A stretch of DNA of 64,000 nucleotides from Lobosporangium transversale (taxonomy: Eukaryota; Mortierellomycota; Mortierellomycetes; Mortierellales; Mortierellaceae): the NCBI RefSeq assembly GCF_002105155.1, contig NW_019028980.1:744001-808000 (forward strand), written 5' to 3'. Positions 18,659 through 44,538 of this stretch are shown piece by piece; position 1 is the stretch's first letter; the number at the start of each line of letters is the position of its first letter. The notes beneath the pieces are model-generated. The model worked only from the letters and a program-made list of their open reading frames with translations, made no database searches and had not been told where the DNA came from. The translations under genes and the position numbers were made by a program.

Positions 18659-19023
18659 TTATACCTGCATCTCCTGGATCTTGATATCGTACAAGGACTC
18701 AATGTCTTCCAGGGTCTGTTTCTGCCCTGGATCACAAAGATTAATCACTAATGTGCGCAGTCCTGATCGTCCAAATGGACCAAACGACGATATGTAGTAT
18801 GCAGCACGTCTGGACATCTCATAATTGATCATCAAGGATGAATAATCCAGATCTAGATTGTCCATCAAAGTCAATTCAGAAACCAGAATACAAGGATCTG
18901 GACCATTGAATTGTCGTGCCACTTCAGTATTATCCGCCAAACTCCACTAATCATAGGAAAGAAGAAGAAAAAAAAAAGATTGTTGTGAATTAGCAGGTTT
19001 TGCGGATTAAAATCGTTTATCAG

Positions 19024-19055
<32 letters not shown>

Positions 19056-22000: not shown

Positions 22001-22835
22001 TTGCAGGATTTGACGTATCATTGTTAGACGCTTCGCCCCAACCGCCATCGCCTGTTGATGTTGCAGCTGTTGGCGGAGCCCCCCATCCATTATTATCCTG
22101 CGTAGTTGTAGTTGTATCCCGACCCTCCTGGCCATCGTTGTTATTGTTTTGATTTGAGGCAAACCTTTCTCTTGTGCCTTCCTCACCTCCTGCCCCCCCT
22201 CCTCGTCCTCCTCTTCCACGTCCTCCACGCCCTCCACGTCCTCGTCCTCCTCGTGATGGAAATTGCTCTGACCCTCTACCACGACGACTGTTGGGGGGTG
22301 AAGATGATGCAGGAGCAGAGGCAGCCGCAGATGGGCCACTCGTACTAGCATCTACACCGGACTCAGCTGTACTGGCGCCGGCGGCAGCTGCTTCTGATGG
22401 CTTTTTACCTCTCTTGTTTCTCTTACTAGTGGGAGGAGTGGATGGAGCCTCTCCGGTGGATGATGGCTGCTGTCCTTCTTGACCTTCATCACCACCACCA
22501 CTGCGGATGGAGGGTGACGACGGAGCGGGGGCCGAGGAGCTTTCTCCATCCTTATCTGTGATGGCAGCCTTGTTCTTCCTAGGTTTTGGGGGCCTGGGTG
22601 AATTGCTATTGGCAGGGCTTGATACGGGTGTAACATTGCCATCACCATTGCTTGAATCTGCTGCTGTTACTGCTGTTGCTGTTTTGTCAGCTTTGTCAGT
22701 TTTATCAGCCTTGTTCTTCTTGTTGCCTTTACCCTGTTTGCCCTGCGGCTGCTTGTCCTTGTCCTGTTGTGGTTGAGTGGTATCTTGGCTGGTACCCTCA
22801 GTCACATTTTTTGGTTCAGATGTCGATTCGCTCAT
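18659..22835 (-). CDS. WG/GW- and RGG-rich protein fused to a degenerate DEAD-box (eIF4A-like) domain
   Basis: Exons 22835-21954, 21846-20359, 20162-20071, 19968-19059 and 18946-18659 join in frame (1,219 aa). Residues 1-790 are disordered and highly charged, with RGG/GRGG clusters and about eleven Trp set in G/S/D/E contexts (GWGD, GWGE, SWGGD), as in Argonaute-hook proteins. Residues of about 795-1215 follow the eIF4A/DEAD plan: MNLNPVVMASIARAGLEKPSNIQ (Q-motif region, here split), GKDLIAQSQS, then LVINYEMS and FGRSG near the end. The ATP-binding AxxGxGKT is replaced by SQSQNDRTN, no DEAD box can be found and the HRIGRxGR motif is lost, so it should not hydrolyse ATP. If the second intron is not spliced, a stop at 20344-20346 gives a shorter protein; two separate genes are the alternative, but no promoter room exists between them. 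Confidence 0.65.
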
Positions 22836-25215
22836 GGCTGCGGCTCTCGATCTGTCGCGTCGAATGAGCTGTAATGCGTTTTCTTTTGGGAAGGGAAGAG
22901 GAGGTGAGGTGGAGTAAGGAGAGGTTTAAAAGAACAAGAGAGAAGGAAAATAAAAAAGAGGGGGGGGAAGGTTGGGTGTGTGAAAGTATTAAATACATTC
23001 ATCAGCTATGAGCTCGCGTATCGTATTCACTTATTTCCGCACTCACAGGCTCACGAGACAATCTTCTGGAAAACGAGCTTGCATTTCTGCGGCTAAAAAT
23101 GCGTAAGGGTATTTACGAACTTTGATTGGCGCTAGAATAACAACTTTATTTCGCTGCAGGGATCAAATACCACATTCTTCCTTAACTAAGCAAGCATCAT
23201 TTTTTTTTTTTTTTTTTTTTAGTTCCGATGTTATTGAGAGCAAGAATGATGCTCTAAAAGTCGCAGCTATCCCAAGATTGAAGCCTACTGAGGAGTTCAA
23301 GATAGAATCTGTCATGGCAGCAGTTAGCAGCAACACCCACGGCCGCTACTACTGCCATAACACCCTACGGCAAGAAAGAAAACAAAAGAAAAGGATAAAA
23401 AGAAGGCCTGTATCACTATGTAAGGAACGCTGGCTTTTTTTTTTTTTTTTTTTCCCCACCAGCAAAGGCTTTCAGTTTTTTGCGCGCATGCACTAAAGTA
23501 ATGGCGTTTTCCTAAACATCAAATGTCAAATATCACACGCTAGTATTTAAAATCAGTACAAGAAGCCTTGCAATCCTTATCCTTTGAAGCTGCACTCATA
23601 AGGAATGCAGGTACTGAAGGATTATTCTTCATTTTCTCTTCAGAGCTCAGTTTAAGTTCTATCTATTTAAATGTGAAGGCTTTTAATATTTTCCCTCCAA
23701 GCTTTATTAAGGCTCAATCCTATCCAGAACTTTGACTAGAGGAGAGAGGATATGTCGCGTTGTCAAGTATTTTCTATAGGATTTTCGCCATTTTGTTCAG
23801 CAAAGATCTAGAAGCCATAACAGGCACTTCTTTCTTTCATTTTCATTACTTATTATGGTTCACCACGAATTACAGAGGAGGCACACATCCCACTTATGGA
23901 GAGCACTTTCAGTCAGGAACTTGAAGCGTGTTACCAGTCGAGAAATATCTTTCTTGGAGTGCTTTTATATTTCCGAAGATCTGGAAGATATCTCGGGCAC
24001 GGTAATCTCCTGGTATTCTGGCTGCAAGCACAAGCATGTCGGTAGATATAGCATAAATGGTCATCCGAATGGATAAGGTCGCAAACTATCCTGAGATTGT
24101 TCTCCATGTCTGTGGAATTAGCATTGTATGTCTTTGCAATACAGAAGCACACGGCCAATACATCTACCAAAGCAATGTTTGCATAGTAAAACCCAGAAGC
24201 CAAGCTAGATAATAGCATAGGAGAAGACAATAAATTAGCTTTGTGGGTTATGTGCTGTAACGAGTAAAACTTTGAGCTATCGCTTTTTGGATTTTGTTAT
24301 TCTTGCCAATGTAGTGGCAGTAACTCGAGCTTAGGATAGCGAGAGGCGGAGGCCCATTGAAACGGGTAGTTTGTGGCTGTAAGGAAGACAAAAGCGCAAA
24401 GGGTGGGTTTTATAGTTTCAACGATAGTGATGCTTCGCCACAATGTTGAGTATCAGTACTCTTTAGGATACGATTGAATTGAGCCATGCAGGTAATTTAA
24501 AATCCCCTTCATCTGGATGGGGAAAGTTCAATAGTGACTGGAATAAAATTGAATAGGAAAACGTCTCCTCATAAAGTCATTGTGAAGATGTTGTGCGTGC
24601 TGAGACTCCTATCCATGCTTCCGTCAATTAAAATCAAATCCTGTCTGAAAATTTATAAAGGGATCAATTTTATCCTCCTACAGCGATACAAGGGTTTGTT
24701 TATTTACGTTTGGCAAATTTGGCAAATTAGGAGAAGCTGACAACCCCAGTTTTCAGCGCCTCCTGTAATTATGCTTACTACCCACAGCCCAGTCATACTC
24801 TTATGCACATGAGGAAATAGATAAAGATTTACACACAAGTAATTACTTTTTTTTATAAAAATAATAAAAAAAAAAAAAAAAAAAAATAGAGAGAACCAGT
24901 TCTCGCCCGATGAAGAGAAAGATGTGTTCACTTAAACTAGTCCTAACCGCATGTGAAGCGCCCGGTCATAAACATTCTGACTATCTTTAAAGATACGATT
25001 GAATTGATCCAACGCAAATGATTTTATTAAAAAAGAGTATACTAAAAGTTTCGGAACCATATATATTTTTGTCCTCATCCCTTAAATCGGGTAGGGAAAT
25101 TATGTTTATCAAACGCGATCGAAATAAAAATAGAAGGAATGCTACTCAGGAAGTCATTGACTGGACAGCGCTGTGCTTAAAATTATAGGGAAATTTGTCA
25201 GTGTCCTGACGCGTT

Positions 25216-25251
<36 letters not shown>

Positions 25252-25453
25252 TAACGATAGAGAGTATGAACTTGGTTTTGTAGTGCAAACCTTTCCCTCG
25301 AAAAATAAAACTGAAGCGGCTCTTATCTTCAGAGCATCTCCAAAGATTACGACAATGCCTCCATATCAAACAGAAGAGGTTTAGAACTGCACAGTACTTG
25401 TTTGAATATCGTATAACAGCCCTTAAAAAAAAAAGCTTCAAGTATGGTCTGGG

Positions 25454-25485
<32 letters not shown>

Positions 25486-26572
25486 CACCTTCGTCTATTC
25501 TAATCTTTACACTGTACAAGCTCGGGGGGGGGGGGGGTTTGTCTTTTTTTCTTGAGCTTATTTTGCAGGGGTTTTTTTTTCTTTTGTTAAGGACTGTTTT
25601 TACGTTATTCGAATACGTACTGTGCCAGTTTTAAGCCTCTTTTACCTAATCCGGAGGCGATGATACAGTCTGTGGAGATGCTCTGAAGGTGAGAGCTGCT
25701 TCACTTTTAGTTTTTGAGCGGAAGAATCTGCATTAAAAAACCCAAGTTCATGTTCTCTATTATTATTGTTAATTTTATATTTTGACTAACATTGCCTAAA
25801 ATCTAAAACAACGCACGAGCCAAGTAAAATCTAAACGTAAAAAAAACGCGTCAAATTTTCAGAGCACTTTGATAACTTTTTTTTTATAACTCCTATAACG
25901 CAAAGTACAAGGATCTTGCTCTACATGGATGATGGGGAGGATACATAAAAAGGGTTATAAAGCGACACCGCCGTGGTTGCTTACCTGTTACAAGTCGATG
26001 GGCTGTCGTGCTCGTAAGAATACTCTTCAATATCTCAACCGTTCCAATAAAGACTTAGGATTGATTCTGGCAACCCTAAACCAGTCCTTGCGCGTATGTG
26101 CTCACAGGGATGAAAGTTATTTTGGTAGCATTGCTAGGCCATAGGCGGTGGAGAGCAGGGGAAGACCCTTCTTCAAGTCCCCCTTACCTTTTATATTCAG
26201 TGAAATAGCTTTCAGAATCGACATGCCTCAGAAGGATATGATGTAATGATAGTAATAGTAATAAAAGCAATATCAGCCTTCGGTTCCATTTCCGGCTTAT
26301 TCTTGTCGTTTCACAAAAGCATATTCCGCATCCTTCTTTGCTTTGGCCTCCTATCAATGATATCATAGCCGGCTTTGTCTTGTTCCATGCCATATGCCTG
26401 GGTACTGCTTACCTCCAAGATGCTCTTTGTTTTTTGTTAAGATGTCATAAGACAGAGATATGGAATGGATGTGATTGGCCCAGGATAGCTTGTACTCCTG
26501 AATAAGTCGCATTTTTCATGCATGGTGCGTTGTCCATGCACGGTAGGACTACAGCAGTGAATAAAGTCTCAT
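22836..26572. other. Gene-poor AT-rich region left of the mirrored element
   Basis: No secure gene. A coding-looking stretch at 23221-23400 (SDVIESKNDALKVAAIPRL and on) follows a 22-base T-run and an AG, so it may be a stranded exon or relic. Homopolymers: T22/A16 back to back (25214-25251), A28 (about 25456-25483), G14 (25524-25537). A 15-base GATACGATTGAATTG occurs at about 24468 and 24992. Other frames are short and unconvincing. Confidence 0.5.
25214..25251. repeat. Adjacent T22 and A16 homopolymers
   Basis: A perfect A/T fold-back with no loop, flanked by GC-containing unique sequence. Confidence 0.85.
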
Positions 26573-26599
26573 TGACCTGTACTGATGTACTGAACATTC

Positions 26600-26880
26600 G
26601 TACTGAAGTTTTTTTCAGTAAATTTTTACTTATTATTTACTTATTATTTACTTACACATCGGTAAAAAAAAAAAAAAAAAAAGTAAATTTTGAGTAAAAC
26701 AAAAGTATATTTCGAGTAAAAATCAGTAAGTACTTACTGAAAATATACTTTTTACTTACTTTTGTTTTACTGATATTTACTGAAAATATACTTTTGTTTT
26801 ACTGATATTTACTGGAAATATACTTATTATTTACTTTTGTTTTACTCAAAATTTACTTTTCTTACTTTTCTTTCAGGGGG
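26600..26880. repeat. Subterminal iteron region with nested inverted repeat (left arm)
   Basis: More than a dozen TTTACT/AGTAAA units occur in about 280 bp. Within it 26682-26707 (AGTAAATTTTGAGTAAAACA...) is the exact reverse complement of 26832-26857, so the arm end itself can fold. The mirror copy is at about 39563-39843. Such subterminal arrays often bind transposase or replication proteins. Confidence 0.7.
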
Positions 26881-27079
26881 CCTGCACTTGAATTCCCCGT
26901 ATATGCACGAGCAAACCAAAGCCACTTACTGATGGGTCTCCACATATGCATGTGGATAGGCTGTCATGGACACACGTTGTTCAGAACATGAGATCAACTT
27001 CTATCAAGTATTCAGCGTGCTACCATGATTAAAAGCGACCACCTTCATTTCATGTTGATAGACATGCTTTTCAGGACTT

Positions 27080-27112
<33 letters not shown>

Positions 27113-27387
27113 GCAGACATAGTATATATAGCCCCGTTTCATTTGGTCATGATACCTTATATTTTTTAAATTGATTGAATAGGCTCCAGCGAAAATTGAA
27201 TTGTATTGAATAGCAACTCTAATTCTGATGTCGTTCGCTACTTGCAAGCTTGGCTCGCTGTCCTCTATTTGCACGCCTAGCGGCGGAAGAGGTCAGTGGC
27301 TTTGACGTTGAATAACTGTTATGCGTCATCATGTTTTGCTTCCGCTTCCTTGCCTTCACTCTTAGCTCTCACGCAACGCAATCAAAC

Positions 27388-28198
27388 ATGATGATCGTCA
27401 AATTCACAGAGTTCCATCAAGTAAGTAGTAAACATTATCTTTTTTTATCATTTAGCTGCGCTTCCTAATTATCTGTAAGTAATCTCTGGTTTCTTACAAT
27501 GAATAGACGCGGACTTTTTCGATCCAATGAGAACATCGCAGCTTCCTTCTCCCTTTTCTTTTCTTTGACCTTGAAGGTCGTTACAAGGAGACACCAGATG
27601 TTCTGCTGATTCGAACCGGCCACTGTACTAGTGGGGAAGCTTTTGAACAGATCTTTGGTCTTGTGCAAAAGCTTCAGCCCCCCGGTAATTAAGAGTCTGT
27701 CAAGCATCTGAATCTTTCTTTTTCTTTTTTTTTTTATTCTTTTCTTTGACCTTGAAGGTCGTTACAAGGAGACACCAGATGTTCTGCTGATTCGAACCGG
27801 CCACTGTACTAGTGGGGAAGCTTTTGAACAGATCTTTGGTCTTGTGCAAAAGCTTCAGCCCCCCGGTAATTAAGAGTCTGTCAAACATCCGAGTCTTTTA
27901 TTTTCTTTTTCTTTTATTTTCTTTTTCTTTTATTTTCTTTTTCTTTTCTTTTTCTTTTCTTTTTCTTTTTCTTTTCTTTTTCTTTTTCTTTTCTTTTTCT
28001 TTTTCTTTTTTTTCCTCCGAAATATGGCTCTGCCTTGGTTCCTACTATCTCCTGTCGGCTCCTTAGGTTCGACCACAAGTTGCCGTATGCTCTCCGTCTC
28101 GGAAAAATGGATAAGGATGTGATCCTTTGCATGGTACTACAAACGCATGGCCTTTATTCAAACCTGCAACCTGCAACTCGATATCAAAACCGATTTTA
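27388..28198 (+). CDS. Unresolved spliced coding candidate in the left arm
   Basis: Pieces with coding character lie in order: ATG at 27388 (MMIVKFTEFHQ) ending at a GTAAGT donor; a 19-nt piece at 27456-27474 between AG and GTAAGT; a piece from 27507 (YADFFDPMRTSQ); a twice-repeated piece reading RYKETPDVLLIRTGHCTSG; and a last piece from about 28070 reading FDHKLPYALRLGKMDKDV and stopping at about 28198. I could not join all of them in frame, so this may be a decaying or mis-read gene. I recognise no domain. Confidence 0.3.
27556..27901 (+). repeat. Tandem duplication, two units 181 bp apart (left arm)
   Basis: About 165 bp beginning near TTTGACCTTGAAGGTCG and ending past AGAGTCTGTCA is repeated at 27556-27720 and 27737-27901 with only a few changes at the 3' side. 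It is followed by a long TTTTC/TTTTA microsatellite (27902-28011). Mirror copies lie at about 38543-38888. Confidence 0.85.
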
Positions 28199-28421
28199 AC
28201 TTACTATCATATACTCTGTATTAATATTAGATCAATCAAGATTTCATTCGTTTGCACACTCAGATGATTAGCAGTTATCGGTCTGCGGTTTTTGTTGAGG
28301 GGCATGGATGAGGGTATCGTGGGCAAGACTCTTGACGGATTTGTTTATAATTCGTTGGAATAGCAAGAAGCATCAGGCATTAAAGATGAATAGTACAATA
28401 AACAATCCTTAATGAAGCAAT

Positions 28422-30133
28422 TTATTCTGATCTCTTGCGCTTTCTATCCTTGAGCTTGCAGAGGTGAAAAGATGGCCTCACCCATGTATGGGCATGTTTC
28501 ACCGCGCCTGTAACGCTCGCGGGTCGCCCCTCGACAGCTTCCTTGGCTTTCAAGTAAGGTGCCTTTGTAGCCTCCAGAATTGGCACTGCTTCTGCAATTA
28601 CTCCAAGGCTCTTCTTATCCTTGGGCAGTGTGACCTTGCCCAATAGTCTGGGGATATAAATGGCTTCGCAATCTAGGGTCATTACGAAGATCTCCATTTG
28701 ATCCTCTAAAAGCGTGAATTAGCACCACTGTCTCCGTTTAGGTTTCATGGATTATAAAAATATACAAGAGTATAACATACTTTGAACAAGCAGACCCAGG
28801 ACCGTTGGGTCTACCACACCCTCAGCGAACAAGAGATCTAGTGCCAGCTTCATCTCAGAAAGTAATTTCCTGAAATCTCTACGAAGGAACACGTTAGAAG
28901 TGCCTGGGAGTTTCACCTCCACTATGAGTAGAGGCAGACCGTTGGCCGTAACCAAGTGATCTGGTCTAAAGCGCTCCTCATAGTATTCCTCCGTTGGGAA
29001 TTCGTAATCGCTGAAAGCGGAGGCGTGTTATACCAAGAGTGAAGAAATAACATGTGAATATCCTGCAGAAGTGAATGAAGAACAAAGAACTGACAGGTCC
29101 ACTACTCACCAAAGTCCTATAGTTTCTGCGATGGCATAGAGGTAGGGCCTGAGGTAGAGCATGCTGTATGTCATCTCGTTTATTTTGGGTGGCTCCCAAA
29201 AGAACGTATCGCTGCCAACCGTGGTGAAAATACTCTTGAGCATTTCACTTGCTCCTTCCCAACCCTGTTCAAGACAGGCGCGATACTCGGAAGCAGAGTT
29301 TGACGCCTCTGCTTTCTCCATGCAGAATTTGGAAAAAGCCAAATCCTGCTCACTCAAGGCTACGGTCGTTGTAGCCTTGAAAAAGTGGCTAAGGATCATA
29401 CCATGCCTGTCTTTTGGACAATACTTTTCCATAAATTCCTTTGTAAAAATGAAGTTTATGGAGCTTGAAATCACAGTAAGAACTGTATTAGTGTCACGAC
29501 CTTCGGTGTATTCTCAAGCAATGAAATAAATGGTTGTAAAAAGCACTCACAGAATATCAGGTGAAGAGAGGAGCGTTCCCTGGCGCTGTTCCTCAAGTTT
29601 AACGAGCTCTTCTCGTGCCTCCATGAGGAGAGAAGACACGTCGAAACGTCCTTTCAAGACCAATCTATCCGTGACCTGGCTACTCCTCTCGCCTTCCCCA
29701 GTGAGGCGGTTGACAGGCTCAGACTTTTTAGTCTTGTCAGACTCGTTAGACTAGTTGTTATTATTTTATTAATATTGGAATCATAATGGAAGTAAATATT
29801 AGTCAAATCGGATCAATTCGTTGGTTCAACGTTAATTTATTCGATACATACCCCCTCCAGGTAACCTCTGATTTTTCTTGTTTTTATGTCTACAAGTAGG
29901 GCACGTAAGCTCTCCTTGTAAATCATATTCACGACCGAATCGTTATTTTTTGGTCGCGTCATGTTCTTGATCCTTGTAATAATGTTGTTGAAGCTTTTAA
30001 CACTACGGCCCATACAGTTTTCTTTGGCGATCAATTCGACGAAATGGAAAATGGTAAGATCCTTTGGGCTTGGCCATTCGCCAATTGGAAATTGGCATAC
30101 CATGTTTTCGAAAATGAATGAGTTGACGGCCAT
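28422..30133 (-). CDS. PD-(D/E)XK nuclease-like protein, left-arm copy, five exons
   Basis: Exons 30133-29852, 29750-29551, 29463-29110, 29010-28781 and 28705-28422 join in frame (449 aa). Residues 292-312 read like a PD-(D/E)XK core: Asp296 in FRPDHLV, then a hydrophobic strand ending Glu310-Val-Lys312 (LLIVEVK). The N-terminal 280 residues are mostly helical and match no family that I know; the tail is basic (KLKDRKRKRSE). Restriction-like nucleases of this sort serve in transposons, in homing and in effectors, and the context with a helicase and DUF6589 protein favours a mobile-element role. Its promoter is the 830 bp up to the helicase start. Catalytic assignment is inference from a short motif. 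Confidence 0.68.
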
Positions 30134-30963
30134 TTTGTCTGAAGAGGTTTAATAAAGTGGTGCGGAAGTTTTTTTAAAAGTGTTACGAAGATGAGAGTGA
30201 CAAAACTTGGCTTGTTGCTTAAGACAATGTGAGATGTTTTTCAGATATTAGAAGTCAAGGAGATCAAAAGTTGTTTTTATTATTGTCAAACGAGAGCCTT
30301 TTATCAAAGACTCTCTATGACCGTCACATGATATTCTGACCTTATGAATAAAAATGGAAGTGCACCTGAGGTGCACTCCCAAGCCTCGGTACGTAACAAC
30401 TCCCCCCTAGGCTCGTCACCAGCCTGAGGACGAAGCGCACGTGTGTTTACACGTGCTGCAAGGCAAGCGTGCCTAAAAAGGCAACTGGTGGCTTGCTCTT
30501 GCAGATGCTTCTCTCTCAGGCTGGTGACGAGCCTATCTCTCAGGCTGGAATCAAAAGTCGACTATTAGCTGGCGACTTAAATTTTTTGAATTTTTTTTTT
30601 TTTCAAAGTCAAAAATCATATGGAAGAGCGTACAAAACACATGCAACTCACATTCATGCTTATATGGAGTCAATCTGGCATATATAGATCGGATACACAT
30701 ATACTTTTCAACATTAACTTTTATCTTTCTTTCTCTCTCTTACCTTTCTTCTCCCTCTCCCTCTCCTTCTCCCTCTCCCTCTCCCTCTTCCTCTCTCTCT
30801 CCCTCACCACCTCACTCTTCCCCTCGCCTTCACCCCTTCTCTCACTCTCATTGCGCTCCCATTGCAATCTCATTACACACCTGCTACACACTCATTACCG
30901 ACCTGTAGTTTTCTCTAACATTTGCAAAAAAAAAATTAATAAAATATTTTGCAACATTAACAA
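30134..30963. promoter_or_regulatory. Bidirectional promoter, left arm (nuclease outward, helicase inward)
   Basis: 830 bp between two divergent start codons. It has an imperfect fold-back of AGGCTCGTCACCAGCCTGAG near 30410 and its complement near 30520, a long CT-rich tract (30727-30860), and A10 just before the helicase start. All but the last 6 bases are shared with the other arm. Confidence 0.6.
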
Positions 30964-33081
30964 ATGTCAGCTACTGGTACTCCAGCAAACCCAGCAAGCG
31001 AATATTCCATCCTACCTGATGATGTTGGTCAGAGATGCTATGATACCTTCAAGTTTTACCCAAGAAAGGAGCAACTTGAAGTTGTGGAGACAATTGGACG
31101 CCATCAAGATTGTATTTTGATTGCTGGTACAGGGTGGGGCAAGACGTTGGTGTATTTTCTTCCACTAGTTCTGTGGCCGAAAGAAATTATAGTCATTATC
31201 ACGCCGCTGAGAGCGCTAGGAGATGAACAGTCGGAAAAACTCGACTTATCTGGTATCCCAAACATCCATCTGAAGAAAGGAACAGAGTTTTCAGTCAGTG
31301 ATCTGGTTAAGGGAAAGTACCGCGCTGTGTTTATGTCGCCTGAGATAATTTTTCAGAACCCTCGTGTGAGCTCACTTTGGAGCATCCCTGAATGGAAGAA
31401 CCGATTAAGAGCGGTGGTGGTGGATGAGGCCCATTGTATTGGGACTTGGGGAGGACAATTTAGAACTGACTATGCGAAGCTCGGGCACTTACGCGCAAAA
31501 GTATCTCCTTCAACCTGCTTTGTGGCCGTCTCCGCCATATTGCCCCCAGTGCTTCTCTCTGAAGTTTTGAAGACGCTTCATTTTAGTAATCCTGTTATAT
31601 TTAACTATGGTAACGATCGGACTAATATCCAGCTTCATGTAAAGCAACTACGATACAAAGCGTCCTCCTACCAAGATCTCGAATTTCTGAAAGATGGCAT
31701 CAAGACAATTGTCTATTTTGATGAAATTCGACAGGCGGAAGCAGCAGCTCGACACGTTGGTGAGCTCATAGGCTGTCGTCAAGTCGCAGTATATCACTCG
31801 ATGAAGTCAGATCCCCTAAAGAAGATAAGAATGTCTGATTTTAAAAACAACGAAATACAAGTCCTCATGTCCACAGAGGCCGCTGGCATGGGTTGCGACA
31901 TGAATGATGTTATCAGAGTCATTCAGTACGGATATCCTAAAAATCTGTCAACCCTGATTCAGAGACTTGGTCGTGCAGCACGCAACCCTGATCTAGAAGG
32001 GGATGGCATCCTTCTTGTCCCGGCATCCAATAGTAAATCTATAGGTAATGTGGATAAAGATATTGTTGAATATGTCAAAACTACAGGTTGTCGCCGCGAG
32101 CTCCTTAATAACTTTTTCGGGAACCAACATAAAGTTATTTCAAGGTGTTGTGACATCTGTAATCCTTCTCTTCCATCAACAGAGGAATCTTTACATGGAT
32201 TAGTTGCGGCAGATACAAGCGACTCTGGTAGTATACTTCCGAAAGTATCATTCACTGAAGCGGAGCGGAAGGTGATAGTAAAGGCAATTGAAACATGGCG
32301 GTATAACATTTTCAAGGAGCAATACGAAGGTCGTTCTCTCTTTGTAAGCCTCGAATGTATCATGTCAAACAAAATGATCAAAACACTTGCTGGAAAAGTC
32401 GCGAGGATAAAACCGTCTGAGTCAGTTCAATCTGTCATTCCATGGCTCTCCATTAAGCAGGATCATATAAAAACTCTGGATGACATGATTGTTGATCTGA
32501 AGACGGACATCATGGCAAGGAGAACACAATCAAGATCAGCGAGTCGTCCATCAGTACAAGATGCGGAGGCAAAGCCAATACAGCAAGTGCATCATTTGCT
32601 TGAGCATCAGCAGGAAAGACAATATGGGCAATTTAGCACAATTCAAGGACTGGAGGCGCTACTCAAGTCGCAAAAAGTCCATCATCTAATACGACAACCA
32701 CCGCTGAAGCAGTTAATACCATGGGATGCATTAGGGCCTCTACAGCACCAAGAATGCCATTGTTGCAAGCTATCAGAGTTGCAACAACCACTGGAACAAC
32801 AGCAACTACTTTTGCAACAGATATTGCAAGCAATTTTGAGTAATCCACCAACGCGGCAACTGCTGTTACAGCCGCCACTGAATCAGTTGCTGCTCAGACA
32901 ACCACTGCAATGTCAACAACCATTGCAAGAAGGACTACAAGAGCACGAGCCACCGCAGGAACAACCGCAGGAGCACCCTAGAAAAGAGAAACTGACATCT
33001 CGGTCTTCACGAAAGCGCAAAGAGCTAAGTAGTCCAACAACATCACAAAATAATATAAAATTTATATCTTGGGAACCATGA
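30964..33081 (+). CDS. RecQ-like DEAH helicase of the mirrored element
   Basis: Intronless, 705 aa. RecQ motif 0 (FKFYPRKEQLE, 30-39), Walker A AGTGWGKT (54-61), TPLRALGDEQ (81-90), DEAH box VVDEAHCIGTWG (153-164), VSAILPP (190-196) and motif VI QRLGRAAR (334-341) are all present, so an active 3'-5' ATP-dependent DNA helicase is likely. A Cys group (CRREL..CCDICNP, about 375-400) resembles the RecQ zinc-binding subdomain. The last 180 residues are a Gln/Leu/Pro-rich repeat with a basic end (KRKELSS). RecQ-type genes are often carried in subtelomeric and mobile DNA of fungi. It converges on the DUF6589 gene with only 49 bp between stop codons. Confidence 0.9.
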   Translation: MSATGTPANPASEYSILPDDVGQRCYDTFKFYPRKEQLEVVETIGRHQDCILIAGTGWGKTLVYFLPLVLWPKEIIVIITPLRALGDEQSEKLDLSGIPNIHLKKGTEFSVSDLVKGKYRAVFMSPEIIFQNPRVSSLWSIPEWKNRLRAVVVDEAHCIGTWGGQFRTDYAKLGHLRAKVSPSTCFVAVSAILPPVLLSEVLKTLHFSNPVIFNYGNDRTNIQLHVKQLRYKASSYQDLEFLKDGIKTIVYFDEIRQAEAAARHVGELIGCRQVAVYHSMKSDPLKKIRMSDFKNNEIQVLMSTEAAGMGCDMNDVIRVIQYGYPKNLSTLIQRLGRAARNPDLEGDGILLVPASNSKSIGNVDKDIVEYVKTTGCRRELLNNFFGNQHKVISRCCDICNPSLPSTEESLHGLVAADTSDSGSILPKVSFTEAERKVIVKAIETWRYNIFKEQYEGRSLFVSLECIMSNKMIKTLAGKVARIKPSESVQSVIPWLSIKQDHIKTLDDMIVDLKTDIMARRTQSRSASRPSVQDAEAKPIQQVHHLLEHQQERQYGQFSTIQGLEALLKSQKVHHLIRQPPLKQLIPWDALGPLQHQECHCCKLSELQQPLEQQQLLLQQILQAILSNPPTRQLLLQPPLNQLLLRQPLQCQQPLQEGLQEHEPPQEQPQEHPRKEKLTSRSSRKRKELSSPTTSQNNIKFISWEP

Positions 33082-33130
33082 AGATTTTTATCATTCAATA
33101 AACAAATTAAGCAAACAGAATCTCTTTGGT

Positions 33131-35488
33131 TTATTGTTCACAGGTCGCATGGACGTAATCAGTAATATCAAAACCAACAATATCGTCCTGCATATCTTCC
33201 TCCTCGTCTTCAATCTCCGTCTCATTATCTACATTCATATCATTGTCAACGCTCAAATCCCCACCCTGCTTCCGGACACAGACTGAATTGACGAATGATT
33301 GGATGCGCTTGCCTTCATTCATTTTTATTATGCCTTCTATGAGGAGATTAGCCACTGATGTGGCGTTTCCAAAGTTTGGATGATTCCTCTTCTCCTGAGG
33401 TATGTTGTCAAAGATATAATACTCTACTAATGACTTGTGGATTGCTGAGATGTCATCGCTCATCGACATATTTTCATGTTTAGTGCCTGTGTATGGAATA
33501 TTAAAATCAATCTCCATTTGGTCCGATAGATCACCGAGAGTCTGAACATTGACAGAAAGTGTCTCTTCCTCCATTTCCCAGTGGTCACAGGTTCGTTTCG
33601 CTTTAAATAAATTCTTGATCAATAAATTGTTGTGCTCTTGGTAAAGGTCTGCTGGTATCCAACGGTTTGGTTGGCCAGTGGTATTGACTAGCCATGAAGA
33701 TCTAACGGCATCCTTTGTTTGCTTGGACCAGGAGTAAGCAAAGCCGCAATGTAGATGCAGAAGTTCATTTGCATAGTTTTTTGTTGATCCGGCTTGAAAC
33801 ATTATTGTGATCCATTTTAGAATCTCTTCAATGCGCCCATGATCACCTGCTTTGATCGCAGACGATAGCTCCAAGTAAAAAAGCATGTCACGGAGAAACA
33901 AGGCGGAATTCCTAGATGTGGTCCCATCGAGGATTTCTAAGGAGCCAGTCAGAAGAAATCTATCAATTAATGTGTCCACTTTCGCCATGAGTTCAATTTT
34001 AAGTACTTCATCGGAGACACCTTCCGCAAATTCTTCCAAGTTTGTACTTAGTAGAGTAAGCTCCCATGCCCGTTGTACTAGTGCATCAAATGACTCGCGG
34101 AGAAGCTCATTTGTGGCATGAAAATCAGGCTTCTCTAGGGAAACCCTCTTTCGTTCAAGCAACGATACATTGAACGCAATTGAACCAGGTGTTGAAGCAG
34201 TGCCATAATGGGTACGCAAAATTGTTGAGGCCAGAAGCATTTGAAGATGGAATAACTGAATGACAGGTATGACCCAGTCAAGGCGGTGGTATGATGAGAT
34301 ATCGTCTGCACGTAATTCCTTCAATGAACGGAGCCTACTGACCGTCAGCTGGTCACCAGCAATGAGTATTCTTCGTCCCTCAAACCATTCATGCGGGAGT
34401 TCCAGCGCAGCTTCCGTTATAAATTCCAAGACTTCCAAGTTACCGCGAATCGTTCCTTGGTCAATACGCATTGATGGAAGCGGAAAAGTTTTCGTCTTTT
34501 CGAGCGTCAGTAAGTGCTTTGTAGGTGCTGGCATTGATTGCCCATCAAATCTTTTAAAATTTCGGAGTAGAACTCCGACCAAGTGGTATTGAAAAACTTT
34601 TCGAAGATGAGCTTCATTGTCATCAGTAGGCATCAAGTCCTGTAGGCGAAGGGATTGTGTGGGCTTGAAGTTTATCTCCTCCTCGGCTGCAACATTTGAG
34701 ACGATTGCAGTTGCTGTAGTTCCACTTACAAATATGTCCCTGTTTCCAAGTCGTTGATGGTGCTTGTGAGACGCCATATTTATATTATCGTATACGATAT
34801 ACCAAGGCACTTCTCTTACTGTAGCCTGGATACGATCGCGTGAGTCCGTACTTAATGCCTTTAGACCCCTCATGATTGTGGGATGAGAAACTGAAAGTCC
34901 TGCCTTTGAGAAAAGATTGACAAGCTTGACAGGCGCACCTTTACCAAACATATATAATCCAGTCATCATTTGAAGATAATTGCATCTGTTGCTGTATAAG
35001 AAGCCCAAGATACTTGCAATGACAGGAACTACTGTTGTAGCATCCCTGGAACTTGATTTATTCGCTCTGGTAAGGCCATTCAGGAGCGAATAAACGGTAG
35101 GAGCAATGGATTGAAATCTGTTGGCAATATTTTGAAGTGAAAACTTATCGGTTCTCTCCTTACAAACACCATTAGATGGAAGTCGCAACGTGTTATCTGC
35201 TGTAACCTCCCTGAGCTCATCCTTTGCAGAATGGAGAACAAATTCAATAGCACCAGAAAGAGCACTCTTCATATGCTCCGGGTCCGTAATGCCTCGCTGC
35301 CACAGGTCGATAATTTCTGCAGGACCATCATTTGCATAGAAAAAATTAACCTTACGCTTAATATTAGAGTCTTGCGACACTAACGAGGCTTTCAAGAAAG
35401 CCCTCAGCGAAAGCCTATGCTTTGCCATCACGTTATAAACGGCTCTCAAAGAAGTGGCACGTTTCGTCTGTTTCTTGCTTTTTGGCAT
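33131..35488 (-). CDS. DUF6589-type protein of the mirrored element
   Basis: Intronless, 785 aa. I choose the ATG at 35488 (MPKSKKQTKR): the frame stays open upstream to 35824, but that part is the shared promoter and untranslated leader. A basic N-terminus is followed by a helical region (about 110-225), then WYIVYDNINMASHKHHQRLG (229-248) and ILIAGDQLTVSRLRSL (374-389), the two blocks I associate with DUF6589 proteins that are greatly expanded in basidiomycetes and Mucoromycota. Asp233 and Asp379, each at the end of a hydrophobic strand, are placed as in RNase H-fold (DDE) transposases; this is inference. The C-terminus is very acidic (ETEIEDEEEDMQDD). Its stop TAA lies within AATAAA. Confidence 0.7.
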   Translation of the reverse strand: MPKSKKQTKRATSLRAVYNVMAKHRLSLRAFLKASLVSQDSNIKRKVNFFYANDGPAEIIDLWQRGITDPEHMKSALSGAIEFVLHSAKDELREVTADNTLRLPSNGVCKERTDKFSLQNIANRFQSIAPTVYSLLNGLTRANKSSSRDATTVVPVIASILGFLYSNRCNYLQMMTGLYMFGKGAPVKLVNLFSKAGLSVSHPTIMRGLKALSTDSRDRIQATVREVPWYIVYDNINMASHKHHQRLGNRDIFVSGTTATAIVSNVAAEEEINFKPTQSLRLQDLMPTDDNEAHLRKVFQYHLVGVLLRNFKRFDGQSMPAPTKHLLTLEKTKTFPLPSMRIDQGTIRGNLEVLEFITEAALELPHEWFEGRRILIAGDQLTVSRLRSLKELRADDISSYHRLDWVIPVIQLFHLQMLLASTILRTHYGTASTPGSIAFNVSLLERKRVSLEKPDFHATNELLRESFDALVQRAWELTLLSTNLEEFAEGVSDEVLKIELMAKVDTLIDRFLLTGSLEILDGTTSRNSALFLRDMLFYLELSSAIKAGDHGRIEEILKWITIMFQAGSTKNYANELLHLHCGFAYSWSKQTKDAVRSSWLVNTTGQPNRWIPADLYQEHNNLLIKNLFKAKRTCDHWEMEEETLSVNVQTLGDLSDQMEIDFNIPYTGTKHENMSMSDDISAIHKSLVEYYIFDNIPQEKRNHPNFGNATSVANLLIEGIIKMNEGKRIQSFVNSVCVRKQGGDLSVDNDMNVDNETEIEDEEEDMQDDIVGFDITDYVHATCEQ

Positions 35489-36310
35489 GTTGCAAAATAT
35501 TTTATTAATTTTTTTTTTGCAAATGTTAGAGAAAACTACAGGTCGGTAATGAGTGTGTAGCAGGTGTGTAATGAGATTGCAATGGGAGCGCAATGAGAGT
35601 GAGAGAAGGGGTGAAGGCGAGGGGAAGAGTGAGGTGGTGAGGGAGAGAGAGAGGAAGAGGGAGAGGGAGAGGGAGAAGGAGAGGGAGAGGGAGAAGAAAG
35701 GTAAGAGAGAGAAAGAAAGATAAAAGTTAATGTTGAAAAGTATATGTGTATCCGATCTATATATGCCAGATTGACTCCATATAAGCATGAATGTGAGTTG
35801 CATGTGTTTTGTACGCTCTTCCATATGATTTTTGACTTTGAAAAAAAAAAAAATTCAAAAAATTTAAGTCGCCAGCTAATAGTCGACTTTTGATTCCAGC
35901 CTGAGAGATAGGCTCGTCACCAGCCTGAGAGAGAAGCATCTGCAAGAGCAAGCCACCAGTTGCCTTTTTAGGCACGCTTGCCTTGCAGCACGTGTAAACA
36001 CACGTGCGCTTCGTCCTCAGGCTGGTGACGAGCCTAGGGGGGAGTTGTTACGTACCGAGGCTTGGGAGTGCACCTCAGGTGCACTTCCATTTTTATTCAT
36101 AAGGTCAGAATATCATGTGACGGTCATAGAGAGTCTTTGATAAAAGGCTCTCGTTTGACAATAATAAAAACAACTTTTGATCTCCTTGACTTCTAATATC
36201 TGAAAAACATCTCACATTGTCTTAAGCAACAAGCCAAGTTTTGTCACTCTCATCTTCGTAACACTTTTAAAAAAACTTCCGCACCACTTTATTAAACCTC
36301 TTCAGACAAA
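35489..36310. promoter_or_regulatory. Bidirectional promoter, right arm (nuclease outward, DUF6589 inward)
   Basis: Mirror of the left-arm promoter. The same DNA therefore drives a different inward gene here, with the shared sequence running into the start codon itself. Confidence 0.6.
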
Positions 36311-38022
36311 ATGGCCGTCAACTCATTCATTTTCGAAAACATGGTATGCCAATTTCCAATTGGCGAATGGCCAAGCCCAAAGGATCTTACCATTTTCCAT
36401 TTCGTCGAATTGATCGCCAAAGAAAACTGTATGGGCCGTAGTGTTAAAAGCTTCAACAACATTATTACAAGGATCAAGAACATGACGCGACCAAAAAATA
36501 ACGATTCGGTCGTGAATATGATTTACAAGGAGAGCTTACGTGCCCTACTTGTAGACATAAAAACAAGAAAAATCAGAGGTTACCTGGAGGGGGTATGTAT
36601 CGAATAAATTAACGTTGAACCAACGAATTGATCCGATTTGACTAATATTTACTTCCATTATGATTCCAATATTAATAAAATAATAACAACTAGTCTAACG
36701 AGTCTGACAAGACTAAAAAGTCTGAGCCTGTCAACCGCCTCACTGGGGAAGGCGAGAGGAGTAGCCAGGTCACGGATAGATTGGTCTTGAAAGGACGTTT
36801 CGACGTGTCTTCTCTCCTCATGGAGGCACGAGAAGAGCTCGTTAAACTTGAGGAACAGCGCCAGGGAACGCTCCTCTCTTCACCTGATATTCTGTGAGTG
36901 CTTTTTACAACCATTTATTTCATTGCTTGAGAATACACCGAAGGTCGTGACACTAATACAGTTCTTACTGTGATTTCAAGCTCCATAAACTTCATTTTTA
37001 CAAAGGAATTTATGGAAAAGTATTGTCCAAAAGACAGGCATGGTATGATCCTTAGCCACTTTTTCAAGGCTACAACGACCGTAGCCTTGAGTGAGCAGGA
37101 TTTGGCTTTTTCCAAATTCTGCATGGAGAAAGCAGAGGCGTCAAACTCTGCTTCCGAGTATCGCGCCTGTCTTGAACAGGGTTGGGAAGGAGCAAGTGAA
37201 ATGCTCAAGAGTATTTTCACCACGGTTGGCAGCGATACGTTCTTTTGGGAGCCACCCAAAATAAACGAGATGACATACAGCATGCTCTACCTCAGGCCCT
37301 ACCTCTATGCCATCGCAGAAACTATAGGACTTTGGTGAGTAGTGGACCTGTCAGTTCTTTGTTCTTCATTCACTTCTGCAGGATATTCACATGTTATTTC
37401 TTCACTCTTGGTATAACACGCCTCCGCTTTCAGCGATTACGAATTCCCAACGGAGGAATACTATGAGGAGCGCTTTAGACCAGATCACTTGGTTACGGCC
37501 AACGGTCTGCCTCTACTCATAGTGGAGGTGAAACTCCCAGGCACTTCTAACGTGTTCCTTCGTAGAGATTTCAGGAAATTACTTTCTGAGATGAAGCTGG
37601 CACTAGATCTCTTGTTCGCTGAGGGTGTGGTAGACCCAACGGTCCTGGGTCTGCTTGTTCAAAGTATGTTATACTCTTGTATATTTTTATAATCCATGAA
37701 ACCTAAACGGAGACAGTGGTGCTAATTCACGCTTTTAGAGGATCAAATGGAGATCTTCGTAATGACCCTAGATTGCGAAGCCATTTATATCCCCAGACTA
37801 TTGGGCAAGGTCACACTGCCCAAGGATAAGAAGAGCCTTGGAGTAATTGCAGAAGCAGTGCCAATTCTGGAGGCTACAAAGGCACCTTACTTGAAAGCCA
37901 AGGAAGCTGTCGAGGGGCGACCCGCGAGCGTTACAGGCGCGGTGAAACATGCCCATACATGGGTGAGGCCATCTTTTCACCTCTGCAAGCTCAAGGATAG
38001 AAAGCGCAAGAGATCAGAATAA
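36311..38022 (+). CDS. PD-(D/E)XK nuclease-like protein, right-arm copy, five exons
   Basis: Exons 36311-36592, 36694-36893, 36981-37334, 37434-37663 and 37739-38022; mirror image of the left copy and the same 449-residue product, as far as the matching frames show. Because both copies have intact splice sites and frames, the arms were copied or homogenised recently. It points outward, away from the core, and is divergent from the DUF6589 gene. Confidence 0.68.
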
Positions 38023-38245
38023 ATTGCTTCATTAAGGATTGTTTATTGTACTATTCATCTTTAATGCCTGATGCTTCTTGCTATTCCAACGAATTATAAA
38101 CAAATCCGTCAAGAGTCTTGCCCACGATACCCTCATCCATGCCCCTCAACAAAAACCGCAGACCGATAACTGCTAATCATCTGAGTGTGCAAACGAATGA
38201 AATCTTGATTGATCTAATATTAATACAGAGTATATGATAGTAAGT

Positions 38246-39056
38246 TAAAATCGGTTTTGATATCGAGTTGCAGGTTGCAGGTTTGAATAAAGGCCATGCG
38301 TTTGTAGTACCATGCAAAGGATCACATCCTTATCCATTTTTCCGAGACGGAGAGCATACGGCAACTTGTGGTCGAACCTAAGGAGCCGACAGGAGATAGT
38401 AGGAACCAAGGCAGAGCCATATTTCGGAGGAAAAAAAAGAAAAAGAAAAAGAAAAGAAAAAGAAAAAGAAAAGAAAAAGAAAAAGAAAAGAAAAAGAAAA
38501 GAAAAAGAAAATAAAAGAAAAAGAAAATAAAAGAAAAAGAAAATAAAAGACTCGGATGTTTGACAGACTCTTAATTACCGGGGGGCTGAAGCTTTTGCAC
38601 AAGACCAAAGATCTGTTCAAAAGCTTCCCCACTAGTACAGTGGCCGGTTCGAATCAGCAGAACATCTGGTGTCTCCTTGTAACGACCTTCAAGGTCAAAG
38701 AAAAGAATAAAAAAAAAAAGAAAAAGAAAGATTCAGATGCTTGACAGACTCTTAATTACCGGGGGGCTGAAGCTTTTGCACAAGACCAAAGATCTGTTCA
38801 AAAGCTTCCCCACTAGTACAGTGGCCGGTTCGAATCAGCAGAACATCTGGTGTCTCCTTGTAACGACCTTCAAGGTCAAAGAAAAGAAAAGGGAGAAGGA
38901 AGCTGCGATGTTCTCATTGGATCGAAAAAGTCCGCGTCTATTCATTGTAAGAAACCAGAGATTACTTACAGATAATTAGGAAGCGCAGCTAAATGATAAA
39001 AAAAGATAATGTTTACTACTTACTTGATGGAACTCTGTGAATTTGACGATCATCAT
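38246..39056 (-). CDS. Mirror copy of the unresolved spliced candidate (right arm)
   Basis: Same pieces as 27388-28198 in reverse orientation, with identical sequence. It adds no independent support because the arms are copies. Confidence 0.3.
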
Positions 39057-39331
39057 GTTTGATTGCGTTGCGTGAGAGCTAAGAGTGAAGGCAAGGAAGC
39101 GGAAGCAAAACATGATGACGCATAACAGTTATTCAACGTCAAAGCCACTGACCTCTTCCGCCGCTAGGCGTGCAAATAGAGGACAGCGAGCCAAGCTTGC
39201 AAGTAGCGAACGACATCAGAATTAGAGTTGCTATTCAATACAATTCAATTTTCGCTGGAGCCTATTCAATCAATTTAAAAAATATAAGGTATCATGACCA
39301 AATGAAACGGGGCTATATATACTATGTCTGC

Positions 39332-39363
<32 letters not shown>

Positions 39364-39562
39364 AAGTCCTGAAAAGCATGTCTATCAACATGAAATGAAG
39401 GTGGTCGCTTTTAATCATGGTAGCACGCTGAATACTTGATAGAAGTTGATCTCATGTTCTGAACAACGTGTGTCCATGACAGCCTATCCACATGCATATG
39501 TGGAGACCCATCAGTAAGTGGCTTTGGTTTGCTCGTGCATATACGGGGAATTCAAGTGCAGG

Positions 39563-39843
39563 CCCCCTGAAAGAAAAGTAAGAAAAGTAAATTTTGAGTA
39601 AAACAAAAGTAAATAATAAGTATATTTCCAGTAAATATCAGTAAAACAAAAGTATATTTTCAGTAAATATCAGTAAAACAAAAGTAAGTAAAAAGTATAT
39701 TTTCAGTAAGTACTTACTGATTTTTACTCGAAATATACTTTTGTTTTACTCAAAATTTACTTTTTTTTTTTTTTTTTTTACCGATGTGTAAGTAAATAAT
39801 AAGTAAATAATAAGTAAAAATTTACTGAAAAAAACTTCAGTAC
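39563..39843. repeat. Subterminal iteron region with nested inverted repeat (right arm)
   Basis: Mirror image of 26600-26880, with the same AGTAAA/TTTACT units and the same internal fold-back. Confidence 0.7.
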
Positions 39844-39870
39844 GAATGTTCAGTACATCAGTACAGGTCA

Positions 39871-40670
39871 CTGACTGGAAACATCAAGGACCGAGCGGGA
39901 TTAATCATGGGAGGCCTGTGAAACATTTTGCCACTGCTCAGTCCAGTTGTGTGGTGCATTGGTCATCCCAGGGAGCGCCGTACATAAGAAAACATTCAAT
40001 ACGTTCCAATAAATTTATTCTATTTCTCGTTTCATTGAATATCTTTCTGATAATGGATTGTACGGTTGAAGAGAAATCCTCAGCTTAAATAGTATAGAAT
40101 CAGGGGGGTGATGGAGATATTGCTTACAATATAGGAAAGCTAAAGATGAGGATGAGAGCTACTTGGATAGGTTGATTACACAGTACGTATGGCCGGTATT
40201 TGCTCATCTGCTCATCCCACATCGGATCTTTACCAGTGAATGGGCGTCATGTCTGAGGTGCTGATGAAGAGGATGGAAAGTTAGTTGAGGACTCGCCAAG
40301 GTAAAAATGGTTTTTTCGCTTTGTCTTTTTTTAGTCTTGGCTACAAAAGGAAGAATGATCTACAAACGAACTACTAGCAAGCAAGGTCAAACCTAGTTAG
40401 ACTCACAAAATAAAATTTTTCTCTCACGCGCTCAGATGTTGTTCTTTTGTGTACAACACGTTATATATATGTATTCGCCCAGATTTTGTGCTAGCTGAGA
40501 CACCAGATCTTGGATTCGCCTAGAAAAATTCGCACTCGCTCTGTGCCTGAAGCCCGTGATCTGGCCTAATTGGCTAGTGAGCCATCACGTACTTCACAGC
40601 TTATACTACATTGCCAATATTTTGGTGTCATTGGCTATACATTTATATCCCCATTACCAAGGTGTGTACA

Positions 40671-41075: not shown

Positions 41076-42053
41076 TCAAGTATCAATCTCGATGACATAT
41101 ATCTGGCCTTTAGCCATAGTTAACACAATCGTGTCCTCTTCACGGGAATATACAGGTGTCTTTGTTGAGCCCTTGATGGACACATGGATCTTGTCATTTG
41201 GCGTCACATCTTCTCCTTTCATTGTTCCAATCCTCACTGTCAACACTGAGCCCTTTAAGGTTGCCTCAGTCTCTACAACCTTGACTTTTCGTCCTTGCCA
41301 GCTCACGGCTACAGTATGTCCCTCTTTCGTCCTAAACCCTTGAACAGATCCCTGATTCAACCATCGATCTGGCAACCCTGTCTCTGCACAAGTCAAGACA
41401 TCCACAGAACCCGGTGATTGGCTTTGTATCACCATCTCCACTATCGCTGCAGCCATCCCTAACAGTCCAGAGTACCCCTCATCAAAATCCAACAAGTTCG
41501 TATGTTTGAGATTATGTTCCTTGAACAGCTTCAGTGCTTTATTAGCCATTGTCCCATTGCCAAGCCGAGCCCATGCAGCTGCACGCCAGCTCTTAGGCCA
41601 TCCCAAGTCCTCCTCCGTTGTTCCCATACGTCGCCGTTCAAGCGTCATCTTGGCAGCCTCCAATAGCTCTTCCCGGCCCGGATTAGCTTCACATCCTCCC
41701 TCGCCGCCTGTGGGCCCTTTTGGTTGGACAAAGATGGCCTGTCCTGGATAAACGGCCCAGAACGGCGCTAAGTGTCGATGAGCGTTGTTAGGATCATCCA
41801 AATCCAAATCCCATTCCTGTAACTGACCCCACTGTCCGATCTTGAATCCCGGTGATAAATTGCTCAAAGTCTCTGTTAGGTTTTGAATAAAGTCCTTGTC
41901 CCGTTCACCAATAATTGTAGTCGCCTGTAATGTCGAGTTCAATAGATTCCAGACCAATTGTTGGTCCAATGCAGAGCCAACTGTGAAGGGACCATGCTCT
42001 GGAGAATATGATGGGGATATCACACGCGAGCCATTGCAATGAGATGGTTGTTG

Positions 42054-42090
<37 letters not shown>

Positions 42091-44538
42091 GGATACTGTT
42101 GCGCTAAAGAATCAATCCAAAACTGTGCTGCTCCCTTCATCACCTTGTACACACGATCCCTCAAGAAATTATAGTCTTGACTATAGAGATACCTCTCCCA
42201 TGCATGTTGAGAGAGCCAAGCATTTGCAGCCGGGAAATAGAATGAATTTGGTTGAGCTGTAGGACCCGTATGTGCCCAGATATTGGAGAATGTATGTGTC
42301 ATCCATCCGCGGACTCCATGATGAAGACTAGCTGTCTCTTGGCCACGAGGGACGAGCAGTTTCTCGATATAGTCGAGCAGCGGTATCACTGTCTCGCCAA
42401 GCCCTGTCCCCTCTGCCAGCCAATAGTTCATCTGCAGATCAATATTCATTTTGTAGCCAAGGCTAGGAGGTCGAAAGAGAAAATAAAAAGCAGAGTTTAA
42501 ATGTTTTAAAAAGCTTTTGAGTAAGTGAGAGCTTAAAATATACATAAGGAAAAAGAAAAGGACAAAGCGAAAAAACCATTTTTACCTTGGCGAGTCCTCA
42601 ACTAACTTTCCATCCTCTTCATCAGCACCCCAGACATGACGCCCACTCACTGGTAAAGATCCGATGTGGGAAGAGGAGATGAGCAAATACCGGCCATACT
42701 GTGTAATCAACCCATCCAAGTAGCTCTCATCCTCATCTTTTGCTTTCCCATGCCGGCTCGCCTCCACTAATTCGTCTGTTGCCAGTTGAGTAGTCGCTGG
42801 TTGGCCCAGATCCAGTTCAAATCTCCGGAATAAAGCTTGGTATTCTTGAAGATACTTTTGGAGCTGATCGTTATAAAACATGGAAAGCGCCTTATCGATC
42901 ACATTGAGCAAGCGAACGTGTGGATCCTTGCCCCGAAAAGTTGGATACTCATTTGTATCCCAGTTCGTGCCCAAACTGTAGTATAGAGTCACCGTGTCAA
43001 ATCCTAACACTATCACTTCTCGACTGTTGGACATGGACACCCCCGTGGCCCCCTCAGCCTTGACTGCGACTTGTGCTTCAACTATCATGTTATTGGATTG
43101 CAGCTGTGCTCGGAATCCTAGCCGGTTATGAATATTGGTGTACTCGAGATTGTTTTCTTGATGTGATTTGAGCGAAACTTTGAGGTTCATAGACTTTGGT
43201 TCAGAGGCTTGCATACGCATCACACAGGTTGACTCTGAGTAGCTGCAAAAATACTCTCTAAAAAGAAAGAAAGTAAAAAAAAAAAAATAAAATAAAAAAA
43301 AAATGAGTATATTAGTAAAAAGTAAAAAGACCATGCAGAAGCTTGAAGGTCCTCACCACATGAGGGTGATTAACTTTCCTTTTTTTTTTTTTTTTTTTTT
43401 TTTTTCCCGGGCTTGCCTATTACCTGCTGTAGTCCACACCTTGTGCCGAGAAGGTCACCCTAATGACTCCAGTTTCCAGATCTAATTCACGTTTATATTG
43501 CTCTACTATTGCGAACGGGCGTAACTCGCTGATCAAGATCTCACCAAATGCCTCGGGCCGTCCAAACCCACGTTCATCCCCTTGTAATGTTTTGACGATC
43601 GGCATGGATGTTTTAATCACTTGCCTCTCATCCAATGCCTTTCGAAATCCCCCCAGCGCCTTTTGCCTTGCCTCTGCTTCACTCTCTGCTACATTTCCGC
43701 CTCTGTACACATTATCTCCTTCGCTTTCACGATCGTAGTAGTAGCTGTTATTATTATTATTATTATTATTGTTGTTGTTGTTGATTTTACCGCTGTTGTT
43801 TTTGTAATTGTACCCAACATTAGTATCCATGGACTCTTGCTGCTGCTGCTGCTGCTGTTGTTGTTGTTGTTGTTGAGATTGCGGTTGAGATTGCGGTCCC
43901 TGTTCAGGGTATCCAGGTCCTCCTGACCAGCAGCTCTCTTCATTCAACACAAGTCGCTCTTGGTTAATCCCTCCACCGACCAACACTCGTACCCGTCCAC
44001 CATTACTCATCAGAAGCCCTTCTTCCTTAATATTCTTTGCAGGGTTCCGATACCAGAGCCTCCAGCGAGAAGGAGGGGGTTCCGATGAAGGGAACGCGTC
44101 TCTCTTTATTTCTGCTTCAATGAATGTTGATGACGTGGGTTCCGATAAGAATTGCCTGCACTCCTCCTCCAATGCGCTCCTAACTTCTGCCTCTGTGCGC
44201 AGGTCTGCAAGACTATTGGAGTTGTCATCCTCATCTTTGAATTTCTTCTCCCCTTCTGTTTTCTTATATCTATCATCCATGTTGTAATCCTGAGAAAATA
44301 CCTCCTGAATGTTGAGCCCTTTATTGGTGTGTGGGCCTCGAAGATGCATAGGTGGTGGTGATGATGGCGATAATGGTGTGTCCTGTAGGAATGGTACCAC
44401 TAGTTGTGCATCTACAATGGCTATAGTCTTCCTGCCTGCGTTATAGCCAAAGTTCCCTTGGCCTGTCAAGAACGCAAGCGTTGTTACCAAGCAGAGCAAC
44501 AGCCGAGCCTTTGGCTTCATAGGACCGTAGTGGTGCAT
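41076..44538 (-). CDS. Glycoside hydrolase family 95 (alpha-L-fucosidase type), three exons
   Basis: Exons 44538-43424, 43257-42586 and 42462-41076 join in frame (1,057 aa). A signal peptide follows the second in-frame Met at 44520 (KARLLLCLVTTLAFLTG), so it is probably secreted. GH95 marks: LWYRNPAKNIKEEGLLMSNG and LNEESCWSGGPG near the N-terminus; SLGYKMNIDLQMNYWLAEG at the start of exon 3; then HGVRGWMTH and WAHTGPT. GH95 enzymes remove alpha-1,2-fucose (or galactose) by inversion. Three low-complexity inserts are unusual: a Gln run and an Asn run in exon 1 (43740-43880) and a Gln run in exon 3 (about 42047-42090), coded by CAG/CAA and AAT/AAC repeats. The catalytic Asp/Asn pair could not be fixed by eye. 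Confidence 0.85.

Follow-up and report, generated by a model that had tools for sequence, protein, structure and literature searches.

The mirrored 13.3-kb stretch in the window (the whole piece of Lobosporangium transversale DNA analysed, 64,000 nucleotides, C40:744001-808000) is most likely a nest of four ordinary transposable-element kinds, without a new single element. From the outside inwards it comprises a hAT-type MITE, part of a Sailor element, the 5' LTR of a retrotransposon, and an AcademH-like transposon. A concentric nest followed by one copying event explains the mirror, and we assign this reading a probability of roughly 0.8. The nest of four and the copying of one side are well supported, and the route of copying would most likely have been break repair guided by inverted ends. 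Thereby a candidate new element class, as put forward in the original prediction, is removed, and a checkable history takes its place.

Self-comparison of the window confirmed the predicted mirror, its coordinates, and the approximate arm length of 4.4 kb:

26573-39870, no strand: entire mirrored region
30958-35486: core between the arms, 4529 bp

The two arms (26573-30957 and 35487-39870; 4385 and 4384 bp) were identical at 4384 of 4384 aligned bases with one gap, a match far above chance level. The sole difference, already anticipated as one homopolymer base, is a T-run of 28 (27085-27112) facing an A-run of 27 (39332-39358). Both outer flanks of the mirror are unique sequence and differ from each other. 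The genome searched was the 42.7-Mb assembly in 127 contigs. The mirror is a real structure with an ordinary make-up, its components being further members of known element kinds.

The innermost component and its immediate surroundings were delimited as follows:

30408-36036, no strand: AcademH-like DNA transposon, 5629 bp, ends TAGGCTCGTC..GACGAGCCTA
30408-30957, + strand: left terminal inverted repeat of this transposon, 550 bp, stopping directly before the RecQ start codon
35487-36036, - strand: right terminal inverted repeat, 550 bp, identical to the left one and reaching the DUF6589 start codon
30964-33081, + strand: RecQ-like superfamily-2 helicase, 705 aa
33131-35488, - strand: DUF6589 protein, 785 aa, DDE-type transposase by predicted fold
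30399-30407, + strand: ACTCCCCCC, the 9 bases with which the retrotransposon interior begins; insertion target of the AcademH-like transposon
36037-36045, - strand: the same 9 bases mirrored, reading GGGGGGAGT on the + strand, at the position expected for a direct 9-bp duplication

Similarity to two close core copies ended at 30407/36037, approximately 0.55 kb beyond the core and well within the arms. One copy (C40:1683796-1689378) showed 98.8% identity over 5635 aligned bases; in the other (C46:70634-77778), the RecQ gene is split by approximately 1.6 kb and the frames contain stops. Neither copy has the arms, and both are flanked by direct 9-bp target duplications (GGATTTTTA in C40, GCCTAGGGG in C46). 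The window copy differs from them in having no target duplication, its flanks ACTCCCCCC and GGGGGGAGT forming a mirror pair instead. AcademH is described as the helicase-bearing lineage of the Academ superfamily (Kojima 2020, Mobile DNA; via PMC10045372 and PMC10799480) with a target duplication of 9 or 10 bp (PMC10045372). The core element shares with it the superfamily-2 helicase gene, 9-bp duplications (at both close copies), and a fungal host; its putative transposase is of the DDE type by predicted fold, and the element is apparently complete.

The RecQ gene starts 6 bases into the core, whose other border runs through the start codon of DUF6589; thus, the inverted ends supply the upstream regions of both genes, which are convergent with 49 bp separating their stops. 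Genome-wide, a RecQ match was found within 15 kb of DUF6589 in 15 of 29 clusters (18 of 32 if three DUF6589 matches to the repeat-encoded leader alone are included), and 12 of 16 RecQ-DUF6589 pairs were convergent. The co-occurrence count covered all matches, in at least 44 RecQ, 48 transposase, 32 DUF6589, and 32 nuclease clusters; its values are lower bounds because only the best candidates were scored.

Both core gene assignments of the original prediction held in Pfam searches. The helicase matched DEAD (7.3e-19) and Helicase_C (1e-16), with RecQ_Zn_bind under the cut-off; in NCBIfam it matched recQ_fam at 2e-54, which is under the curated cut-off of that model, and its PDB matches include WRN, RecQ, and BLM (best 3.4e-34). 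The DUF6589 match was at 6.2e-110, and a 477-aa Lobosporangium transversale protein matches a portion of the window protein at 100% identity. DUF6589 is a Pfam family without assigned function, and its name was not found in the literature searched. The structural model of the protein resembles DDE transposases of the hAT, P, and RAG type; Foldseek alone gave nothing at E ≤ 0.001, with the P element as best match (6.5e-3). The predicted DDE fold for this family is a by-product of the analysis. In the element, both genes may be driven inward from the inverted ends; the DUF6589 protein, acting as a DDE transposase, would carry out DNA cleavage and joining with assistance from the RecQ-like helicase.

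Most of each arm is taken up by part of a Sailor element:

27131-30229, + strand: left part of a Sailor element with terminal inverted repeat and nuclease gene, without the transposase half; 82-91% identity to the Sailor copies C37, C44, C13, C106, C53, C58, and C95
36215-39313, - strand: mirror copy of this Sailor part, from arm self-comparison
28422-30133, - strand: nuclease-like gene, 5 exons (30133 down to 28422), 449 aa
36311-38022, + strand: mirror copy of the nuclease-like gene, from arm self-comparison

A complete Sailor copy was found at C37 (6976 bp) with TATA on both sides, a 607-aa transposase ORF, the nuclease gene, and terminal repeats that form a 1359-bp inverted match of 99.85% identity. 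The published Sailor of Lobosporangium transversale closely agrees with it (6979 bp, 1362-bp terminal repeats, 607-aa transposase), and Sailor elements are described as IS630-Tc1-mariner members with a TATA target, a DD78E-DD111E spacing, and a size attributed to the long terminal repeats (PMC8533490). The Sailor transposase found here has 88 residues from the second D to the E as chosen by us. In the window, the junction reads TATA|GCCC with the TATA target at 27127-27130. The window differs from Sailor in having the nuclease half alone; because the transposase is missing from the arms, the genes that the outer element would need are not all present in the mirror, and the self-sufficiency suggested for its genes was not borne out. 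A 181-bp tandem repeat of approximately two copies lies within each arm (27556-27930 and 38514-38890) and is also present in Sailor relatives.

The third predicted gene kind, a PD-(D/E)XK-like nuclease, fared less well, and for the arm gene, whose splice sites were our choice, this label is only weakly supported by sequence features. The Pfam match to HSDR_N (E = 0.015) is under the cut-off; a PDB sequence search revealed no relative, PADLOC gave no match, and the fold model of a relative (P0001) was poor (pLDDT 41). A D..EVK motif is intact in 10 of the 11 loci examined, both window arms included, and only the C95 copy is without the D. Among 6514 candidates, a single relative was identified, from Lobosporangium transversale. 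The dN/dS ratios of the nuclease gene between subfamilies were 0.69 (C37), 0.66 (C95), and 0.94 (C106, a broken copy), indicating weak constraint at best and arguing against a strongly needed gene. A Sailor-type transposase lies within 3 kb of the nuclease at 12 of 32 nuclease clusters genome-wide (lower bounds). The word 'nuclease' is absent from the main text of the Sailor paper (PMC8533490), and the finding that such a gene travels with Sailor in this fungus is a further by-product.

The two remaining components are the LTR and the MITE:

30230-30398, + strand: LTR (TG..CA), 5' LTR of a retrotransposon, 169 bp
36046-36214, - strand: mirror copy of the LTR, identical
26573-27130, + strand: left half of a hAT-type MITE, plus three outer bases CAT at 26570-26572
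39314-39870, - strand: right half of the hAT-type MITE, with CTG at 39871-39873

Solo copies of the LTR are flanked by the 5-bp duplications GGTAT (C103) and GTGTC (C95), and a full-length LTR pair in C33 has GGTCG at both outer sides; one copy in C45 (L060) has the unequal flanks TATAC/TATAT. At two further loci (L054 and L055), the bases following the 5' LTR are ACTCCCCCC, the start of the retrotransposon interior. The Sailor sequence in C106 (L045) is uninterrupted by the LTR and runs on into the Sailor transposase.

Other MITE copies extend from CAGTGACC to GGTCACTG. Exact 8-bp duplications were present in three of the five two-ended copies checked (found by script in L019 and L021, and in L022 on reading, its end shifted by one base); in the other two, an exact adjacent duplication is absent. 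The duplications and the CAG..CTG ends resemble those of hAT-type MITEs, and no transposase was seen. The window MITE has no 8-bp target duplication, unlike three of the five other copies, and its ends are CAT on the left and CAG on the right. Given the missing duplication and the third base that differs between the sides, the two flanks may not derive from a single insertion, and a larger rearrangement is possible; the absence of an exact duplication in two of the five checked copies weakens any argument from the missing one in the window. The Sailor insertion lies at TATA near the MITE centre. The central loop is retained in two MITE copies (L017 and L019) and is missing on the right side of the window, which indicates that copying extended beyond the end of Sailor and reached the arm of the MITE.

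These data suggest the following history. A Sailor element with transposase and nuclease genes would have inserted close to the centre of a hAT-type MITE, itself palindromic. An LTR retrotransposon would next have inserted upstream of the nuclease gene, as the insertion-free site in the C106 relative shows, and the AcademH-like transposon would then have entered 9 bp into the retrotransposon. Before copying, the left side would have consisted of MITE, Sailor nuclease half, LTR, and AcademH in this order; on the right, as we infer, AcademH would have been followed by the remaining retrotransposon, the Sailor transposase half, and the MITE. For a break or gap on the right, the left side would have served as an inverted template for repair, the 550-bp AcademH inverted ends probably providing homology on the inner side and the MITE arm on the outer side. 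The copied tract would comprise at least 3.28 kb (27131-30407), with loss of the remaining retrotransposon and of the Sailor transposase half.

The mirrored AcademH flanks without a duplication, together with the LTR found at corresponding positions of both arms, indicate that one side was copied after the nest had formed; two independent insertions of one 169-bp LTR at an identical base are impossible. The near-identity of the arms, which had been taken as a sign of recent origin or active gene conversion, thus reflects recent copying. An unlikely alternative to the repair of a chance break is that transposases made the inverted duplication, by hairpin formation or aberrant end-joining at AcademH excision. 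The AcademH ends mark the inner limit of the copied tract, and the DUF6589 model is similar to enzymes of the hAT and RAG type, which form hairpins; however, excision alone leaves the outer border at the MITE unexplained, and the AcademH element is still in place.

Three further gene-bearing mirrors were identified in the assembly. In C103, the arms (16150-19315 and 29980-33145; L057, L056; 3166 bp, 99.97%) each contain RecQ together with a solo LTR whose GGTAT duplication is common to both arms, and a DUF6589 gene lies between them. The C84 arms (L064; 61681-63995 and 67683-69999; 2317 bp, 99.91% within the piece examined) each contain RecQ, with no DUF6589 match between them among the matches of the genome search. 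In C34 (L065), arms of 2951 bp (19979-22929 and 24123-27073; 99.93%) each carry an IS630-Tc1-mariner-type transposase, of which other copies have one. These mirrors indicate that the process recurs or, less likely, that the assembly is repeatedly in error. With four such structures in one assembly, the window included, it becomes possible to test whether copying between inverted transposon ends happens repeatedly.

It is distinctly unlikely that the window mirror is itself an assembly error in which two copies of the left arm were joined via inverted repeats and the true right side is different. Repeats exceeding many read lengths are a known assembly hazard, the arms differ in homopolymer length alone, like polished copies of one sequence, and a systematic error would give several mirrors in an assembly. 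Nevertheless, since the outer flanks are unique and unlike each other, two false joins would be required, one at the AcademH end and one at the MITE.

For copying of one side of the nest, Galileo of Drosophila provides a known parallel. Its inverted ends are described as extending by absorbing adjacent sequence, with recombination or break repair between close inverted repeats discussed as the route (PMC3573991). In both cases, inverted ends appear to gain neighbouring sequence; in Galileo, as described there, inner element sequence is absorbed, whereas in the window the mirrored sequence lies outside the innermost transposon and spans three older nested elements.

A single composite element mobilised as a whole from the MITE ends, its arms carrying the nuclease and its core RecQ and DUF6589, is extremely improbable: the mirror borders do coincide exactly with the MITE ends, and at C24:133457-137464 (L053) nuclease exons lie 1.4 kb from a RecQ fragment, but the outer ends have no target duplication, core and arms occur at other loci with separate ends and with partners of their own, the co-occurrence count over the best-scoring candidates revealed no second copy of the combination, and at C24 both genes are broken and the window's AcademH end is not matched. 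The nuclease stands next to RecQ or DUF6589 only in the window and at C24, which also departs from the other Sailor-type relatives examined in its identity to the arm (71-74% compared with 82-91%); with this one broken locus as exception, arm and core genes do not co-occur elsewhere among the clusters counted. The separate ends, partners, and target duplications of the core copies elsewhere lead us to reject one element class formed from arms plus core, and the idea of a self-sufficient element of unmatched class falls with the armless core copies and their own 9-bp duplications and with the pairing of the nuclease with the Sailor transposase.

With regard to a possible role, it is conceivable, albeit very unlikely, that the mirror is a natural hairpin locus whose transcript folds into approximately 4.4 kb of double-stranded RNA over the Sailor, LTR, and AcademH ends and silences those families via RNA interference. 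An inverted duplicate silences Mu elements in maize. If so, recurrent mirrors would be kept since they tame their own parent elements.

Elsewhere in the window, a 144-bp inverted pair of 97% identity (40187-40330 and 42556-42699) surrounds a glycosyl hydrolase 95 gene (41076-42545).
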